The notes under the pieces: generated by a model
Told to the model about the DNA's origin: nothing
What the model saw: only the letters and a program-made list of their open reading frames with translations
Database searches by the model: none
Source of the DNA: Gemmatimonadota bacterium
Lineage (GTDB): Bacteria; Gemmatimonadota; Gemmatimonadetes; Gemmatimonadales; GWC2-71-9
Direction: 5' to 3'
DNA length: 64,000 bases
Assembly (NCBI GenBank): GCA_009692185.1
Contig: SHZT01000003.1
Coordinates: forward strand, 1 to 64,000
In this document: positions 1,843 through 13,623 of the stretch, piece by piece
Layout: every line of letters begins with the position of its first letter
How positions within the stretch are numbered: the first letter of the stretch is position 1
Made by a program: the position numbers and the translations under genes

Positions 1843-2214
1843 TTAGCTGCACTTCGGCTCGCCCTCTTTCGTAGCGGGCGACAGGGACGAGGTGCCGATG
1901 AAGATGGCGCAGGACCGGGTGGTCTGCGTGTGGGCAACATACGCCGTCACGTCCGAACCGAGGACCGTGATGGTCGGGCCGGTGACGCCGGTGGAGACCG
2001 TGTACATCGTAGCGGGCAGCCCCGTGGTGTACGCGGTGTTGTCGCCGAAGTAGGACTCCTGCGCGGTGATCAGGTTGCGCAGATCCGACTTCATCGTGGC
2101 CAGATACGCCTTTTCCTTCGTGTTGGCGAACTTCGGAATCGCGATAGCGGCCAAAATGCCGATAATCACGACCACGATCAGAAGTTCGATAAGTGTGAAG
2201 CCCTTGCGGTTCAT
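1843..2214 (-). CDS. pilA: Type IV major pilin PilA
   Basis: 123 residues. The N-terminus MNRKG|FTLIELLIVVVIIGIL is a canonical type IVa prepilin: short basic leader, prepilin-peptidase site Gly5|Phe, Glu at mature position 5, then the polymerisation helix. The globular domain is small, with a Cys pair (the SCAIF segment and the terminal Cys) that could form the usual C-terminal disulfide loop. The product is the structural subunit of the type IV pilus, processed by PilD and assembled by PilB/PilC. The upstream region has a sigma-54 promoter and a palindrome, and pilS-pilR lie about 6 kb away, so PilSR control is likely. A terminator follows, so the gene is probably monocistronic. Confidence 0.92.
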   Translation of the reverse strand: MNRKGFTLIELLIVVVIIGILAAIAIPKFANTKEKAYLATMKSDLRNLITAQESYFGDNTAYTTGLPATMYTVSTGVTGPTITVLGSDVTAYVAHTQTTRSCAIFIGTSSLSPATKEGEPKCS

Positions 2215-2277
2215 GGATCTGCCTCCGTGACAGGTGGAATACGCGCCCGAGTGGGTCTAGGCGTCACCCCCATGAGG

Positions 2278-2292
2278 TGCAAGCACCGTGCC
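2278..2292 (-). promoter_or_regulatory. Sigma-54 (-24/-12) promoter of pilA
   Basis: The minus strand reads GGCACGGTGCTTGCA. It has the invariant GG and GC doublets exactly 10 bases apart and matches the RpoN consensus (TGGCACG-N4-TTGCA) at all positions except the first T. Transcription would start near 2267, leaving a leader of about 50 bases before the pilA ATG. Confidence 0.8.
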
Positions 2293-2310
2293 GTGCCGGC
2301 ATGGCATTCT

Positions 2311-2339
2311 AACTGTATGATTAACAACAAGATACAGTT
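2311..2339. promoter_or_regulatory. Palindrome upstream of the pilA sigma-54 promoter
   Basis: Perfect 8-bp inverted repeat AACTGTAT-N13-ATACAGTT, AT-rich against a GC-rich background. It lies 19-47 bases upstream of the -24 element, where an activator of RpoN could bind. The PilR protein encoded at 8449-9831 is the obvious candidate. Its binding is inferred, not shown. Confidence 0.5.
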
Positions 2340-2405
2340 CATTCGGTCAAGCGGTGGGGGGTCGGGGGGGTCAAATTGCAAGGCGCAACGGAGAGCGCCA
2401 GTCCC

Positions 2406-7710: not shown

Positions 7711-8477
7711 TGACGCTGGTCGGCTCGGAACAGGTTGAAACGGAGAATGTGCCAAAGGGCGGCAACGCCGTCCTTCCAGCCGATCTTCTTGCCCTCGGCG
7801 TACGTGCGGCCGCTGTAGCTGATGGGCACCTCCCAGATCCGCGCGCCGGATCGTGCGAGCCGGGCGGTCAGCTCGACCTCGATCCCGAACCGTTCGGACA
7901 CCAGAGGAAGCGATTTCATGAGGTCCGCCCGGACCATCTTGTAGCAGGTTTCCATGTCGGTCAGGTTCAAATCGGTCAGCATGTTCGACAGTAACGTCAG
8001 CACCTTGTTCCCGACCGAATGCCAGAAGTACAACACCCGCCGCGGACCGGACTGGAAACGCGAGCCAAACACCGCGTCGGCCTTGCCCTGGAGAATCGGG
8101 TCAAGCAGGACCGGAAGTTCTCGCGGGTCGTATTCCAGGTCGGCGTCCTGGATCACGATCACGTGCCCCGTCGCCGCCTGGATGCCCGTGCGAACGGCGG
8201 CGCCCTTGCCGCGGTTCACCGGATGATGGATGACCTTGCTGATCACCCCCGCCTTCTGGAGGCGATCGAGGATCTCGCCGGTGCGGTCTCCCGACCCGTC
8301 GTTCACCGCCACGATTTCCACGGTGAGCGGGACCGCGGCGAAACGCCCGATGGACTCCTCGATCGTCGACTCTTCGTCCTTTGCGGGCACGACGGCCGTC
8401 ACCACCAGTTCGGCGAGGCTCCTCGGAATCGGCGCGGAGCGCCGGGCGTCAGCCGGCAACACGGTCGGGGGTCTCAT
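7707..8477 (-). CDS. GT2 glycosyltransferase, dolichyl-phosphate sugar synthase type
   Basis: Start at the ATG at 8477 (MRPPTVLPADA), inside the last 29 bases of pilR; the longer frame upstream is pilR in another frame. About 256 residues. A GT-A fold is evident: AVVPAKDEESTIEESI near residue 30, a 'VNDGSGDRT' nucleotide-binding segment, 'GKGAAVRTG', and the DXD-like 'IQDADLEYDP'. It lacks C-terminal membrane helices, like soluble DPM1 enzymes that load mannose or glucose onto polyprenyl phosphate at the cytoplasmic face. The next three genes encode GT-C enzymes that would use such a donor, so the cluster is self-consistent as a lipid-linked glycosylation pathway. Confidence 0.8.
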   Translation of the reverse strand: MRPPTVLPADARRSAPIPRSLAELVVTAVVPAKDEESTIEESIGRFAAVPLTVEIVAVNDGSGDRTGEILDRLQKAGVISKVIHHPVNRGKGAAVRTGIQAATGHVIVIQDADLEYDPRELPVLLDPILQGKADAVFGSRFQSGPRRVLYFWHSVGNKVLTLLSNMLTDLNLTDMETCYKMVRADLMKSLPLVSERFGIEVELTARLARSGARIWEVPISYSGRTYAEGKKIGWKDGVAALWHILRFNLFRADQRQ

Positions 8478-9831
8478 AGCGGGCCAGCTTCCGGTGCAGG
8501 GTGGACGGGTCGATGCCGAGTACCTCGGCCGCGCGGGTCTTGTTGCCGCCTTCGGCCTGGAGAACCCACAGGATGTACGCGCGCTCAATCACGTCGAGCG
8601 TGGGGTTCTGGGGCGGCCGGTCGCCGACCAGCAGCTGGGCTTTCCGCTGGGTGATGCGTTCGGGGAGCTGCTCGGCGGTGATCTCGTCCCCGCGCGACAG
8701 CGTCGCCGCGTTCTCCAGCGCGTTCTCCAGCTCACGCACGTTGCCGGGCCAGTCATAGGCCATGATGGCGTCGAGCGCGTCGGAAGAAATCCGCCGGGCG
8801 GTAGCGCCCCGTTCCTGGGCGATCCGCTGGAGGAACGCATTCGCCAGGATCGGAATGTCCTCGCGCCGGTCGCGCAGCAACGGTAGATGGAGCGCGATGA
8901 CGTTCAGGCGGTAGTACAGGTCCGACCGGAACGCGCCGCGGCGAATTTCCTCATCCAGGTCGCGGTTGGTGGCGGCAATGACCCGGACATCCACGGGAAT
9001 CGGCTCGGTCCCACCGACCGGGAGCGCTTCACGCTCCTGCAGGACCCGGAGGAGTTTCACCTGGGTGGACGGTTGCATCTCGGCGATTTCGTCCAGGAAG
9101 AACGTCCCGCCGCGGGCCGCCGCGAACAGGCCCTGCTTGTCGCGGATGGCTCCAGTGAACGAGCCCTTCACGTGGCCGAACAACTCGGACTCCAGCAGGC
9201 TCTCGGGCAGGGCACCACAGTTTATGGACATGAATGGCCCGTCGGCCCGTTGGGAGAGCTCGTGGATATACCGGGCGACCACTTCCTTTCCCGTTCCGCT
9301 CTCTCCCAGGACCAGCACGGTGGACTCGGTCGGCGCGACCTGCTCGGCAAGCTTGAGGACATCGAGGAACCGCTTCGCCTTGCCCAGCGGCTGCACCGAG
9401 CGGGAACGGTCCCGGCGGCGGATCTCGCGCTTGAGGTGCTTGTTCTCCGACCGCAGGGCGCGGTATTCGACGGCACGGCGCAGGATCGCCACCATGTCGT
9501 CGTTGGAAAACGGCTTCTGGATGTAGTGGAAGGCGCCCTGGTTCACCGCCTGGATCGCCGATTGGAGCGAGGCCTGGGCAGTCATAAGGATCACCGGCGT
9601 CTCAGGGTCCTGCTCGCGCACCGCGTCGAGAATGTCGATCCCGCCGACCTGCGGCATCCGGATATCCGTGAGGACGATGTCGTGCGAGCCTTTACGGATC
9701 GCCTCGAGCCCCGCGGTGCCGCCCTGCGCCGTCTCGACCTCAAAGCCCGAGTTCTTGAGCAGGATCCGCAGCGTGCCGAGGATCGCTGACTCGTCGTCCA
9801 CGATCAGGATGGAAGGAAGTTGCTGGCTCAT
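8449..9831 (-). CDS. pilR: NtrC-family sigma-54 activator, PilR-like
   Basis: 460 residues. Receiver domain 1-120 with acidic pocket D12/D13, phospho-acceptor D56 (VLTDIRMP) and K106. The AAA+ domain has Walker A GESGTGKE at 176-183, the sigma-54 contact loop as GSFTGA at 223-228 (the usual GAFTGA with Ser for Ala) and Walker B GGTFFLDE near 241-248. A Fis-type helix-turn-helix lies at the C-terminus (GNKTRAAEVLGIDPSTLHRKL). The ATG overlaps the pilS stop (ATGA), so the kinase upstream is its partner. The expected target is the sigma-54 promoter of pilA at 2278-2292. Family members without a pilus role exist, but the locus supports PilR. Confidence 0.88.
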   Translation of the reverse strand: MSQQLPSILIVDDESAILGTLRILLKNSGFEVETAQGGTAGLEAIRKGSHDIVLTDIRMPQVGGIDILDAVREQDPETPVILMTAQASLQSAIQAVNQGAFHYIQKPFSNDDMVAILRRAVEYRALRSENKHLKREIRRRDRSRSVQPLGKAKRFLDVLKLAEQVAPTESTVLVLGESGTGKEVVARYIHELSQRADGPFMSINCGALPESLLESELFGHVKGSFTGAIRDKQGLFAAARGGTFFLDEIAEMQPSTQVKLLRVLQEREALPVGGTEPIPVDVRVIAATNRDLDEEIRRGAFRSDLYYRLNVIALHLPLLRDRREDIPILANAFLQRIAQERGATARRISSDALDAIMAYDWPGNVRELENALENAATLSRGDEITAEQLPERITQRKAQLLVGDRPPQNPTLDVIERAYILWVLQAEGGNKTRAAEVLGIDPSTLHRKLARYETPDRVAG

Positions 9832-11507
9832 GCTGCCGCCTCCGCGGCCTTGGCGGGGAAGACAGCGGTGAACACGGTGCCGTGCCCCGGCTCGGAGTCC
9901 ACGAACACCAGCCCGCGGTGGGCCTGCACTGCCCGCTGGACGATGGCGAGCCCGAGCCCGGTGCCGCCGGCCCGCCCGGTCACGAACGGATCGAACAGGC
10001 GTTCGCGCAGTTCATTGGGAATTCCCGGGCCGTTGTCCGACACCTTGAGCAGGACGGGTGTCTCGAGTCGCACGCCGCGCGGCAATTCGGAGGACACGGC
10101 GGCCCGCACTTCGACGGTGACCACCGCCTTGGCGCCGGCGGCCTGCACCGCGTTGAGGACCAGGTTCTGCACCACCCGGTGCAACAGGTCTTCATCACCT
10201 TCGAGCAAGGCGGGGCCGCGAACGACCCGGAGTTCAGCCCCGGTGGGGCAATCCGGGTGCGCGCGCACCATGTCCACCGCGGCCTGCGCCACGCCTCCCA
10301 GATCCACCGGGCGGCATCGGGTCACCTGTACACGGGAGAAGTCGAGAAACTCGGACAGGATTCTCGACAGCCGGTCGCTTTCGCGGAGCACCAGTTGGGA
10401 CAGAAAGCGTTCATCCTCGTCGCCCCGCGACCGCCGGGCCAGTTGCTCGACGGACGAGCGGATGGACGCCAGCGGGTTCTTGATCTCGTGCGCCAGCGAC
10501 GCCGAAAGCTCAGCCACCGCCTCGAGGCGCTCGTTCCGCATCTTCAACTGCTCCATGCGCTTCTGATCGGAAATGTCAGTAAAGATCGCGGTGACCGAGG
10601 CCGGCAGGGTTGCGTCGCTCCGGACCGCGGTGGTGGTCAGCCCGATCGCGAACGTCCGATCCCCGCGGGTGATCTTGCCCTCGGCGCGAGAGACCCCTTC
10701 TCCGCCCTGCCGAGTCGCGACGATAGCCCGGTACAACTCCGGCGAGTGCGCCTGAAGCCAGTCGAGGATCGGCTCCCGCACCCAATCGCCGGAAGAGAAC
10801 CCGAGCAGTACCTCGGCGGCGGGGTTGGCAAACAGGAGCTCTCCGGCGGCATCCACGGAGACTACGCCTGAGGAAATGTTGCGCAACACGTCGCTGGCCT
10901 CGAGCCGCAGGCGGTGAACTTCTTCCTGCAGGACCTGACGCTCTGCACCCACTGCGCGAACCCGGCTCGCGACCCAGCCGGTGGCCACGGCCACGCTCAC
11001 GAAGACGCCCAACTGAAGCCCGAGGACCAGCGACATCTGGGGAGGGGCCGGACGGCCCCACACGTTGTCGGCGACGTACACCAGGCAAGCGAGAACGGTG
11101 AGCAGGAATCCCGACCGGACCGGCATCAGCACCGAGCTGACGGCTATGACCAGGATGTAGAGCGCCGTGAAATTGCTTTCCAGGCCGCCGGTCACATGCA
11201 CAATGGTCGTAACCAGGGCGAGGTCGAACAGCGCCTGGGCATAGAGGAGCGTCAGCCCCGGAACCGTACTAAGCACGTAAATCTGGAACAGGGAGCCACC
11301 GGTGACGACGACGGCGAGGATCGTGGCCACGGCCAGCGCGACCAGCCAGCTGGGGGGAACGTTGTTGAGGTAGAACGCCGCCACGGCGAACACGACGACG
11401 GCAACCGTCACCCGCCACAACGCTACCCAGCGCAAAAGCCGGCTGACTTCGGGCATGGCTCGCCCGATGCCGAGGTGCTGCAGTCCGGTGCCCGGAGACT
11501 TGCGCAT
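9828..11507 (-). CDS. pilS: Membrane sensor histidine kinase, PilS-like
   Basis: I use the ATG at 11507 (MRKSPGTGL; 559 residues); a TTG at 11537 would add 10 residues. Six hydrophobic helices fill residues ~25-180, the PilS layout without a large periplasmic domain. Then come a short coiled coil (QVLQEEVHRLRLEASDVL), a PAS domain (~210-310), the H-box SLAHEIKNPLASIR with His340, N-box LNAVQAA, G1 SDNGPGIP and G2 GTGLGLAIVQ. All catalytic boxes are intact. It overlaps pilR by 4 bases. In known systems PilS monitors pilin in the membrane and phosphorylates PilR to drive pilA. Confidence 0.85.
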   Translation of the reverse strand: MRKSPGTGLQHLGIGRAMPEVSRLLRWVALWRVTVAVVVFAVAAFYLNNVPPSWLVALAVATILAVVVTGGSLFQIYVLSTVPGLTLLYAQALFDLALVTTIVHVTGGLESNFTALYILVIAVSSVLMPVRSGFLLTVLACLVYVADNVWGRPAPPQMSLVLGLQLGVFVSVAVATGWVASRVRAVGAERQVLQEEVHRLRLEASDVLRNISSGVVSVDAAGELLFANPAAEVLLGFSSGDWVREPILDWLQAHSPELYRAIVATRQGGEGVSRAEGKITRGDRTFAIGLTTTAVRSDATLPASVTAIFTDISDQKRMEQLKMRNERLEAVAELSASLAHEIKNPLASIRSSVEQLARRSRGDEDERFLSQLVLRESDRLSRILSEFLDFSRVQVTRCRPVDLGGVAQAAVDMVRAHPDCPTGAELRVVRGPALLEGDEDLLHRVVQNLVLNAVQAAGAKAVVTVEVRAAVSSELPRGVRLETPVLLKVSDNGPGIPNELRERLFDPFVTGRAGGTGLGLAIVQRAVQAHRGLVFVDSEPGHGTVFTAVFPAKAAEAAA

Positions 11508-11544
11508 GGGCGCCAAGTATCTAGACGTGTCTAGCAAAATGCAA

Positions 11545-11776: not shown

Positions 11777-12640
11777 TTACCCCTGCACCGCGTTGATCAT
11801 GTCGAAGATGGGCAGGTACATGGCGACGATCATGCCGCCGACGACTCCGCCCAGGAACACGATCATGACCGGTTCCATGAGGGAGAGCAGCGTGCCGACG
11901 GCCGCGTCCACCTCGTCGTCGTAGAAATCCGCGACTTTCGAGAGCATTTCGTCCAGGCCGCCGGTAGCTTCTCCGACCGCGATCAGTGACGTCACCATCG
12001 GGGGGAACACGCCAGACTTTTCCAGCGGGCCCGCGATCGTTTCACCGCCGGCGATCGAGGTCCGGGACCACATGACCGCATCGTGAATCACGCGGTTGCC
12101 CGATGTGCGCGCCGTGATCTCGAGGCCGTCGAGAATCGACACACCCGAGGCGATCAGGGTGCCCAGCGTGCGGGTGAAGCGTGACACGGCCTGCTTGCGG
12201 AGGAGGTTGCCGAGTACCGGGAAATTGAGCAGGAACCGGTCGCAGACCAGCTGGCCTTTGTCCGTCTTGTAGTAGCGCTTGATGAAGGTGTACCCACCGA
12301 ACGCGCCGACCGGGATGCCGATGTACCCGAACGGGCTCTGGAGAAACTCGGACATCGCGATCACGATTCGCGTGGGCAGGGGCAGCGTCAGGTTCACCGA
12401 CGCGAACATCTGCTGGAAGGTCGGGATCACGAAGATCAGCAGCACGCTGACGGCGATGCCGGCGACGCTGAAGATGACGCCCGGGTACACCATGGCGCCC
12501 TTCACCTTCCGGATGATCGCGTCGTTCTTTTCCATGAATACCGCGAGACGCATCAGGATGGTGTCCAGAATACCGCCGGCCTCGCCCGCCTGGACCATAA
12601 GGTCGCCGAGTCGTTCGGAAGTCGCTGCCGCTGTTGCCAT
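11777..12640 (-). pseudogene. pilC: PilC pilus platform protein, N-terminally truncated
   Basis: 287 residues from the first ATG, against about 400 for full PilC/GspF. Both conserved GspF boxes remain: 'LMVQAGEAGGILDTILMRLA' (first repeat, late part) and 'LIAVGEATGGLDEMLSKVADFYDDEV' (second repeat), with the three membrane helices (SVAGIAVSVLLIFVIPTF, YIGIPVGAFGGYTF, VMIVFLGGVVGGMIVAMYL). The cytoplasmic N-terminal ~110 residues are absent. In frame, a TAA lies about 45 bases upstream of the ATG and the text between has no similarity to PilC. An IS1-like element begins 110 bases upstream. PilC anchors the assembly ATPase, so a protein lacking this part is unlikely to work normally. Confidence 0.7.
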
Positions 12641-12750
12641 TAACGCCCTATACGAGGGAAGTTGAGAAGGTTCAATGTTTTACGGGCAATATCGGAAGCT
12701 ACCGGGGCCCCTAGGAGAGTCAAGGCACGCGGGTGATGTCCTGGTTTGAC

Positions 12751-13623
12751 TGTGACATGGAGCACGTTGTTACGAACCGATCAGGGTTTCGGCGTTCATG
12801 GCGTCGAGGATTGCTTCCATTTTCCAGACGTGGCCGGTCACGCCAGCCGCCATTGCCGGGGTGGTGTGAACGCCCTTCCGCTCCTTGGTCAACGTGCCGT
12901 GCGGACGGCAGAAGTTGTAGACCATGAAGTGCAGGGCCACGGCGTAGGCGTGGTTTTCTTCCTTCTTGCTGAACCCGTTCGTAAGCCGTGTGAAGCGCCG
13001 TGAGCGCATCCGCAGGTCCAGGTTGTTCCGCTCGACATAGGACGTGCTGACCAGCTTGGGGTCCGGGTTGCCGAGGCACCGAGTCTTTTCGATTTTGAAC
13101 GCCCCAAGCACAGCATTGAGGTAGTGGGTGTTGCCGTCCGTGGTCAGTTGAATCCGCCCCGACATCCGCCCCGCCAAGTCCCGCATGAACGTGTTGAAGT
13201 TCTCCGCCGTCCGCATCCCGACCAGCCACGTCACCATGAGCTTGGAGTCGGGGTCAATCGCGGTGAACGTCCAGCAGTCACCCATCCCCGGCCCGCGTGC
13301 GTGTTTCTGCTTCTTCCCCACGAACGCCCAAATCTCGTCTGCCTCGATGCGGACGGACGGCAAGCGCCGGAGGGCGTAGTCCTGGTACAGCTCGCAGAAC
13401 TGGCCGACCTGAACCAAGAGCTTGAGCACGGTGTCCTTGCTGACACCCACCAAGCGAGCGGTCGCCCGAACGGACGAGCCTTCCGTGAGCGCCTTGAGGA
13501 TGGCGACCTGTTTGGTCTGCGGTAGCACGTTCATTGTAACGGACATAGTAGCCAAATGGTCATGCATGGTCAACTCCGGTGGCACAGTTTCGGGATCTAT
13601 CGGGGTATACAAACCATGTCACA
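12751..13623. mobile_element. IS1-like insertion sequence
   Basis: A perfect 10-bp inverted repeat, TGTGACATGG at 12751-12760 and its complement CCATGTCACA at 13614-13623, brackets the transposase gene and defines an 873-bp element. I see no matching target-site duplication outside the repeats. The ends are therefore tentative; the true element could be somewhat larger. It separates the truncated pilC from a Fic gene. Confidence 0.5.
12770..13534 (-). CDS. IS1-family DDE transposase
   Basis: Start set at the ATG at 13534 (MNVLPQTKQVAILKALTEG; 254 residues); three earlier in-frame starts back to 13612 are possible. An N-terminal helix-turn-helix (SSVRATARLVGVSKDTVLKLL) is followed by a DDE core: Asp in 'RIEADEIWAFVGKK', Asp in 'LTTDGNTHYL', Glu in 'SYVERNNLDLRM'. 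The 'GFSKKEENHAYAVALHFMVYNFCRPH' C-terminus is typical of IS1-like enzymes of the long single-frame type, with no programmed frameshift. It appears intact. Transposition of this element may have caused the loss of neighbouring pilus sequence. Confidence 0.85.
   Translation of the reverse strand: MNVLPQTKQVAILKALTEGSSVRATARLVGVSKDTVLKLLVQVGQFCELYQDYALRRLPSVRIEADEIWAFVGKKQKHARGPGMGDCWTFTAIDPDSKLMVTWLVGMRTAENFNTFMRDLAGRMSGRIQLTTDGNTHYLNAVLGAFKIEKTRCLGNPDPKLVSTSYVERNNLDLRMRSRRFTRLTNGFSKKEENHAYAVALHFMVYNFCRPHGTLTKERKGVHTTPAMAAGVTGHVWKMEAILDAMNAETLIGS

Follow-up and report, generated by a model that had tools for sequence, protein, structure and literature searches.

The locus raises the question of how the type IV pilin gene pilA is controlled in a Gemmatimonadota genome, and what role a perfect palindrome plays ahead of its sigma-54 element. 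The window, i.e. the whole stretch of DNA analysed, comprised 64 kb. The gene and its upstream elements are:

1843..2214, minus strand: pilA, type IV major-pilin-like gene, 123 aa (ORF; PF07963 N-terminal methylation motif and prepilin domain model, both above cut-off)
2278..2293, minus strand: sigma-54 -24/-12 element CGGCACGGTGCTTGCA, with comparable elements ahead of relatives' pilins
2310..2334, minus strand: predicted IHF-type dyad TAT-CTTG-TTG-TTAAT-CAT-ACAG-TTA, 16 bp upstream of -24, 10/12 dyad positions
2311..2339, minus strand: perfect palindrome AACTGTAT-N13-ATACAGTT, overlapping the dyad by near-chance and not read as a separate site
2371..2400, minus strand: candidate upstream activating sequence (UAS) TGGCGCTCTCCGTTGCGCCTTGCAATTTGA, proposed PilR site; 14.9 bits, rank 2 of 127,942 with a leave-one-out matrix

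The sigma-54 element ahead of pilA

The initial annotation had placed a sigma-54 promoter with GG-N10-GC and a near-full consensus upstream of pilA, and this was borne out. The element lies 79 bp before pilA with GG-N10-GC intact. It matches 11 of the 12 specified bases of TGGCACGN4TTGCA, which is the top of the family range. Judged from the position of -12, pilA transcription is expected to start near 2267. This would give a leader of approximately 53 nt, with GGAGG at 2226..2222. No terminator of the upstream gene and no sigma-70 promoter was found in 2150-2480. The genome held one match to the rpoN DNA-binding domain and three strong matches to the AAA+ activator domain, one of them inside the window.

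Three sets of pilin upstream regions were compared, and the titles of named relatives were nearly all Gemmatimonadetes, Gemmatimonadota or Gemmatimonadales/-aceae. The family set started from 120 upstreams, of which 71 had a sigma-54 score of at least 8; selection for 'RKGFTLIELL' and at least 125 bp left 53, and 52 were non-redundant. The further set comprised 61 upstreams, reduced to 33 with a score of at least 9 and to 30 that were non-redundant and at least 160 bp long. Upstreams of the first set were left out of it, yet some came from the same family. The class set, from other families of the class, was reduced from 42 upstreams to 20. GG/GC elements recurred before the pilins in all three sets. 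Of the 120 family upstreams, 49 scored at least 9/12, whereas shuffling yielded about 2.2 per 120 and the reverse strand 6 per 120; in the further set, 33 of 61 scored at least 9. Class families with elements of at least 9/12 were f10 (5/6), f2 (5/12), f4 (5/8), f6 (1/1), f7 (3/14) and f9 (1/1). The sigma-54 element ahead of pilA is present beyond chance.

Copies of pilA in tandem, several with their own sigma-54 element, were seen at L011, L012, L013 and L018. Another pilin group of the family (MK/R-x-x-GFTLIELL; L059, L060, L062, L064, L068, L076 and L080) carried sigma-54-like elements. By eye, several upstreams of this group held an apparent tRNA gene end.

Conserved upstream elements and the state of the pilus genes

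A dyad, TAA-N4-TTG-N5-CAA-N4-TTA, was kept in relatives, ending 15-20 bp before the -24 element. The mean best match in the 52 family promoters was 8.46 of 12 versus 4.70 (sd 0.15) in shuffles, and other windows within these promoters gave means of 4.0-5.3. The dyad was first spotted by eye in the family set; the second set therefore matters. There, the 30 promoters reached a mean of 8.70 versus 4.65 (sd 0.20) in shuffles. The 20 promoters from other families of the class reached 7.90 versus 4.64 (sd 0.24). An unaided motif search in the 30 further promoters returned TAAgT..TTg.....cAa.g..TTa; in 29 of them, this motif stops 16-19 bp short of -24. Its log-likelihood was 216 versus 77-90 in three shuffles, which were run with fewer restarts. 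The strongest motif of the unaided search in the family set was the UAS, not the dyad. The f9 promoter was without the dyad (4/12), and the f6 promoter showed it with 11/12 positions at 29 bp. The window's copy deviates with TAT for TAA and CAT for CAA. With a matrix built from 71 dyads scoring at least 7, the window promoter left out, 2334..2310 ranked 1 of 127,952 window positions. The dyad is conserved beyond chance. A hairpin or covarying structure, with arms that differ between relatives yet remain complementary, was considered and rejected. In two sets, 36 column-pair tests gave five with p < 0.05 (lowest 0.013, uncorrected; about two expected). On this basis, the element was read as a sequence motif and not as a folded structure.

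Upstream of the dyad, the family shared the UAS ttGCg.c.ggCc....G.cTTGCAAAA.gC, with its end 90-95 bp before -24 in 41 of 52 promoters. In the further set the upstream element was related but different, and in 23 of 30 promoters its end lay 80-84 bp from -24. The end of the window UAS is 77 bp from -24, nearer by 13-18 bp than is usual, and the UAS score is weak for the family (range 6.9-33.5 bits; 9 of 51 lower). PilR is predicted to bind at 2400..2371. The genes for the putative activator and its kinase, and the region beyond them, are:

8449..9831, minus strand: PilR-type response regulator with receiver, sigma-54 AAA+ domain with GSFTGA (KGSFTGA) and Fis-type HTH (HTH_8); ORF and domain matches
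9828..11537, minus strand: PilS-type histidine kinase (PF25323 6TM_PilS, 44.9 bits, cut-off 27)
11777-12679 and 12770-13612, minus strand: truncated pilC (T2SSF domains) and IS1-type transposase gene region

The pair lies 6 kb from the pilA promoter, and the kinase with the PilS membrane domain adjoins the NtrC-type regulator. The PilR-type activator with a GSFTGA loop that had been noted nearby was thus recovered. The circuit had also been called complete. In outline, the sigma-54 pilA promoter with PilS/PilR is supported, but completeness is doubtful. The only PilC matches in the genome fell on one 5'-truncated frame, open to 12679, beside the IS1-type transposase gene. Terminal repeats that would clearly mark an insertion were not seen at this locus. 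A PilT-like ATPase frame elsewhere (L234; G000:C14:298282-299100, minus strand) contains one in-frame TAG, which reflects either decay or an assembly error. The pilA circuit may be decaying in this genome, or the assembly may be wrong. In the extreme, the promoter would be a relic of a non-working type IV pilus system with its elements left over, as the apparently broken pilC and PilT-like frames and a UAS scoring below most family members could suggest. This is unlikely, since the sigma-54 element stands at the top of the family range, the dyad and the UAS keep ranks 1 and 2 among window positions, and the pilA, pilS and pilR frames are open. The conservation argument rests on the relatives.

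Identity of the dyad and the palindrome

The dyad reads as a predicted IHF-type binding site. Excerpts of PMC8421141 give the E. coli IHF consensus as WATCARNNNNTTR with two kinks 9 bp apart; it is one-sided, often with an A-tract on the other side, whereas the Gemmatimonadota dyad is two-sided. TTG-N5-CAA corresponds to two IHF half-sites placed back to back at the 9-bp kink spacing. The ends of the dyad read TTR/YAA with matching degeneracy at both (T43/C6 and A36/G12 of 52). The YAA-N4-TTG and CAA-N4-TTR columns agree with the CARNNNNTTR part of the IHF consensus, and the right half of the window dyad, CAT-ACAG-TTA, has one mismatch to it. The WAT before CAR was not conserved in the family columns, although the window's own sequence there is AAT-CAT. 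With a matrix built from 73 sites of Gemmatimonadota, again dyads scoring at least 7, lambda H' ranked 4th of 13,954 positions (7 kb, NC_001416), with three positions scoring higher. H' shares the core TTG-N5-CAA-N4-TTG with the dyad and agrees with YAA-N4-TTG-N5-CAA-N4-TTR at 11 of 12 positions. The ranked position is presumably the IHF site of attP H'.

Many dimeric regulators typically bind symmetric sites, and the dyad could belong to one that is neither PilR nor the IHF-like protein of this genome. The missing WAT is consistent with such a regulator, as are the curated IHF models, which matched the IHF-like protein below cut-off. The TTR/YAA degeneracy, TTG-N5-CAA with its 9-bp spacing and a location between the enhancer and -24 nevertheless fit IHF, and together with the rank of lambda H' they make another regulator improbable.

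The palindrome had been described as perfect arms around N13, 19 bases upstream of the sigma-54 element and in enhancer position for PilR. The arms and the N13 are present, but the distance is 17 bases. No other exact match to these arms and spacing occurs in the genome. Shuffling gave perfect 8-bp inverted repeats with a loop of 3-20 in 4.6% of 200-bp stretches, and there are 70 such repeats in the window. As such, the palindrome is barely beyond chance. The proposed search upstream of relatives' pilA recovered its arms solely in the window's own upstream, 1 of the 223 compared (family 120, further 61, class 42). Among the 124 anchored promoters examined, no other had any perfect 29-bp palindrome with 8-bp arms at that place. 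Of the conservation conditions set in the initial annotation, the one on the GG/GC spacing thus held in relatives, and the one on the palindrome failed. The centre of the palindrome, near -58, lies 3 bp from that of the dyad. The palindrome is probably a DNA-bending site, mostly the conserved dyad seen 3 bp out of register, and not the activator's site. The enhancer assignment was not supported. The IHF-type dyad is what is conserved there, the UAS is the better candidate, and the centre is close for an enhancer. The palindrome or the dyad might still be the PilR site itself, with the upstream TTGC element serving something else, as the dyad lies near the promoter, is conserved together with it and has PilR encoded 6 kb away; this is improbable, given a palindrome confined to one upstream and a dyad that matches IHF consensus and spacing, stays unchanged between sets whose upstream element differs, and has its centre near -55, a short distance for a looping activator.

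The IHF-like protein and the promoter model

The genome contained one IHF/HU-family (PF00216) gene, and no second one for a two-subunit IHF heterodimer was found in it. The nearest curated models of the protein were IHF beta and alpha, below cut-off, with the best match to the IHF-beta model (91.4 bits versus a cut-off of 115). It was therefore filed only as an IHF-like PF00216 member. Its best solved relatives were single-chain IHF, with HU and Hbb among others. Arg46 of IHF beta reads TTR. In E. coli IHF, this residue enters the minor groove (excerpts of PMC8421141). The alignment showed IEIRGFG in the IHF-like protein, as in IHF beta. IE[IV]RGFG was present in all 24 genes of the IHF-like type that were read and absent from 5/5 of the other, HU-like type. 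In 51 family genomes, with match length as the criterion, IHF-like-type genes numbered one in 48, two in 2 and none in 1. Counting all IHF/HU family genes, 10 of the 51 held one and 41 held two or more, so a heterodimer is possible in most relatives, outside the window's genus.

With a single IHF/HU-family gene, the protein could plausibly bind a symmetric site as a homodimer. It is tentatively proposed that in Gemmatimonadota a single-gene IHF-beta-like protein may act as a homodimer reading both site ends, as a class-wide bending module of pilin promoters. Each subunit would carry the E/R pair of IHF beta, so that each end shows TTR/YAA. This would explain a two-sided site as against the one-sided site of E. 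coli. The module would also stay on the same DNA face when shifted by about one turn, as with the 26-bp distance at this genome's second promoter and the 29-bp distance in one f6 genome. Autoregulation of the IHF-like gene was rejected; the 2-mismatch dyad before it shares bases with the last part of the preceding coding frame and was not counted.

Taken as a whole, the pilA promoter is quite likely a three-element sigma-54 promoter composed of UAS, IHF-type dyad and -24/-12 element. The three elements stand at defined positions and are conserved. The protein-DNA contacts, the bend, the start site and the dependence on PilR are predicted from them. Sigma-54 RNA polymerase would wait in a closed complex on 2293..2278. 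PilR, phosphorylated within the PilS/PilR pair, would bind the UAS and use ATP for opening the polymerase complex. The IHF-like protein, probably a homodimer here since only one IHF/HU-family gene was found, would kink the DNA at the dyad and let PilR meet the polymerase.

Excerpts of PMC2725144 and PMC6058289 describe an RpoN promoter under PilR for pilA of Geobacter sulfurreducens and PilS/PilR-RpoN control of pilA in Pseudomonas aeruginosa, respectively. The present locus resembles both, with a pilin gene behind an RpoN promoter and a PilR-type activator nearby. It differs in belonging to another phylum and in having a conserved IHF-type dyad placed between the UAS and -24; no mention of IHF was found in the PMC2725144 main text. 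The orp1 and orp2 promoters of Desulfovibrio, in excerpts of PMC3897727, likewise have an IHF site that lies between the sigma-54 element and the site of the activator. Experiments there established functional sites at -79 (orp1) and -43 (orp2), compared with about -55 here. The protein tested was a heterodimer of two IHF subunits, and the one-sided E. coli consensus served as the reference for the sites. The predicted site ahead of pilA, by contrast, is a two-sided dyad, and the genome has one IHF-like gene. The arrangement suggests a one-gene, symmetric form of IHF and bears on the origin of the asymmetric heterodimer with its one-sided consensus. Gemmatimonas appears a single time in the main text of the survey PMC3162934, for its place among phyla, and pilA nowhere. 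Among the matches listed in Gemmatimonad literature searches, judged from their entries, none dealt with sigma-54 control of pilins in Gemmatimonadota, and no experimental work on type IV pilin control in this phylum was found, for which a concrete promoter model is now provided.

Two sigma-54 sites with at most one mismatch were found in the genome, that of pilA and one preceding a prepilin gene (L179; G000:C5:96323-96389). The latter has a 2-mismatch dyad at a distance of 26 bp upstream, roughly one helical turn more than at pilA. Its gene encodes a GspH-like prepilin (22.0 bits versus a cut-off of 21) with a GTG start and a very short leader. At L229 (G000:C12:241742-241796), a dyad with 11/12 positions lies 14 bp upstream of the 2-mismatch sigma-54 site TGGCACACCGCGTGCA, ahead of a gene whose 251-aa product has a signal-like start and no Pfam match. 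By chance, 0.027 dyad/sigma-54 pairs were expected and P(two or more) was 0.0004, with pilA as the discovery site and the 10-30-bp range set afterwards. Sigma-54 sites with at most two mismatches numbered 136 versus 263 for a reversed control pattern (positions from the first 100 of the 136). Only sites with at most one mismatch or paired with a dyad were therefore used, and a regulon from the consensus alone was rejected. The closest paralogue of pilA (C9) was set aside, having CGGCACG at -24 but GT for GC at -12, and no clear dyad was seen there. Dyads with at most two mismatches occurred at 25 places versus 15 for the reversed control, a modest excess. One-mismatch dyads away from sigma-54 sites were seen at L231 and L232 (G000:C14:193336 and C27:165628), by eye beside parA-like and typA-like sequences. 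From these two, the dyad may serve as a general IHF-type site.
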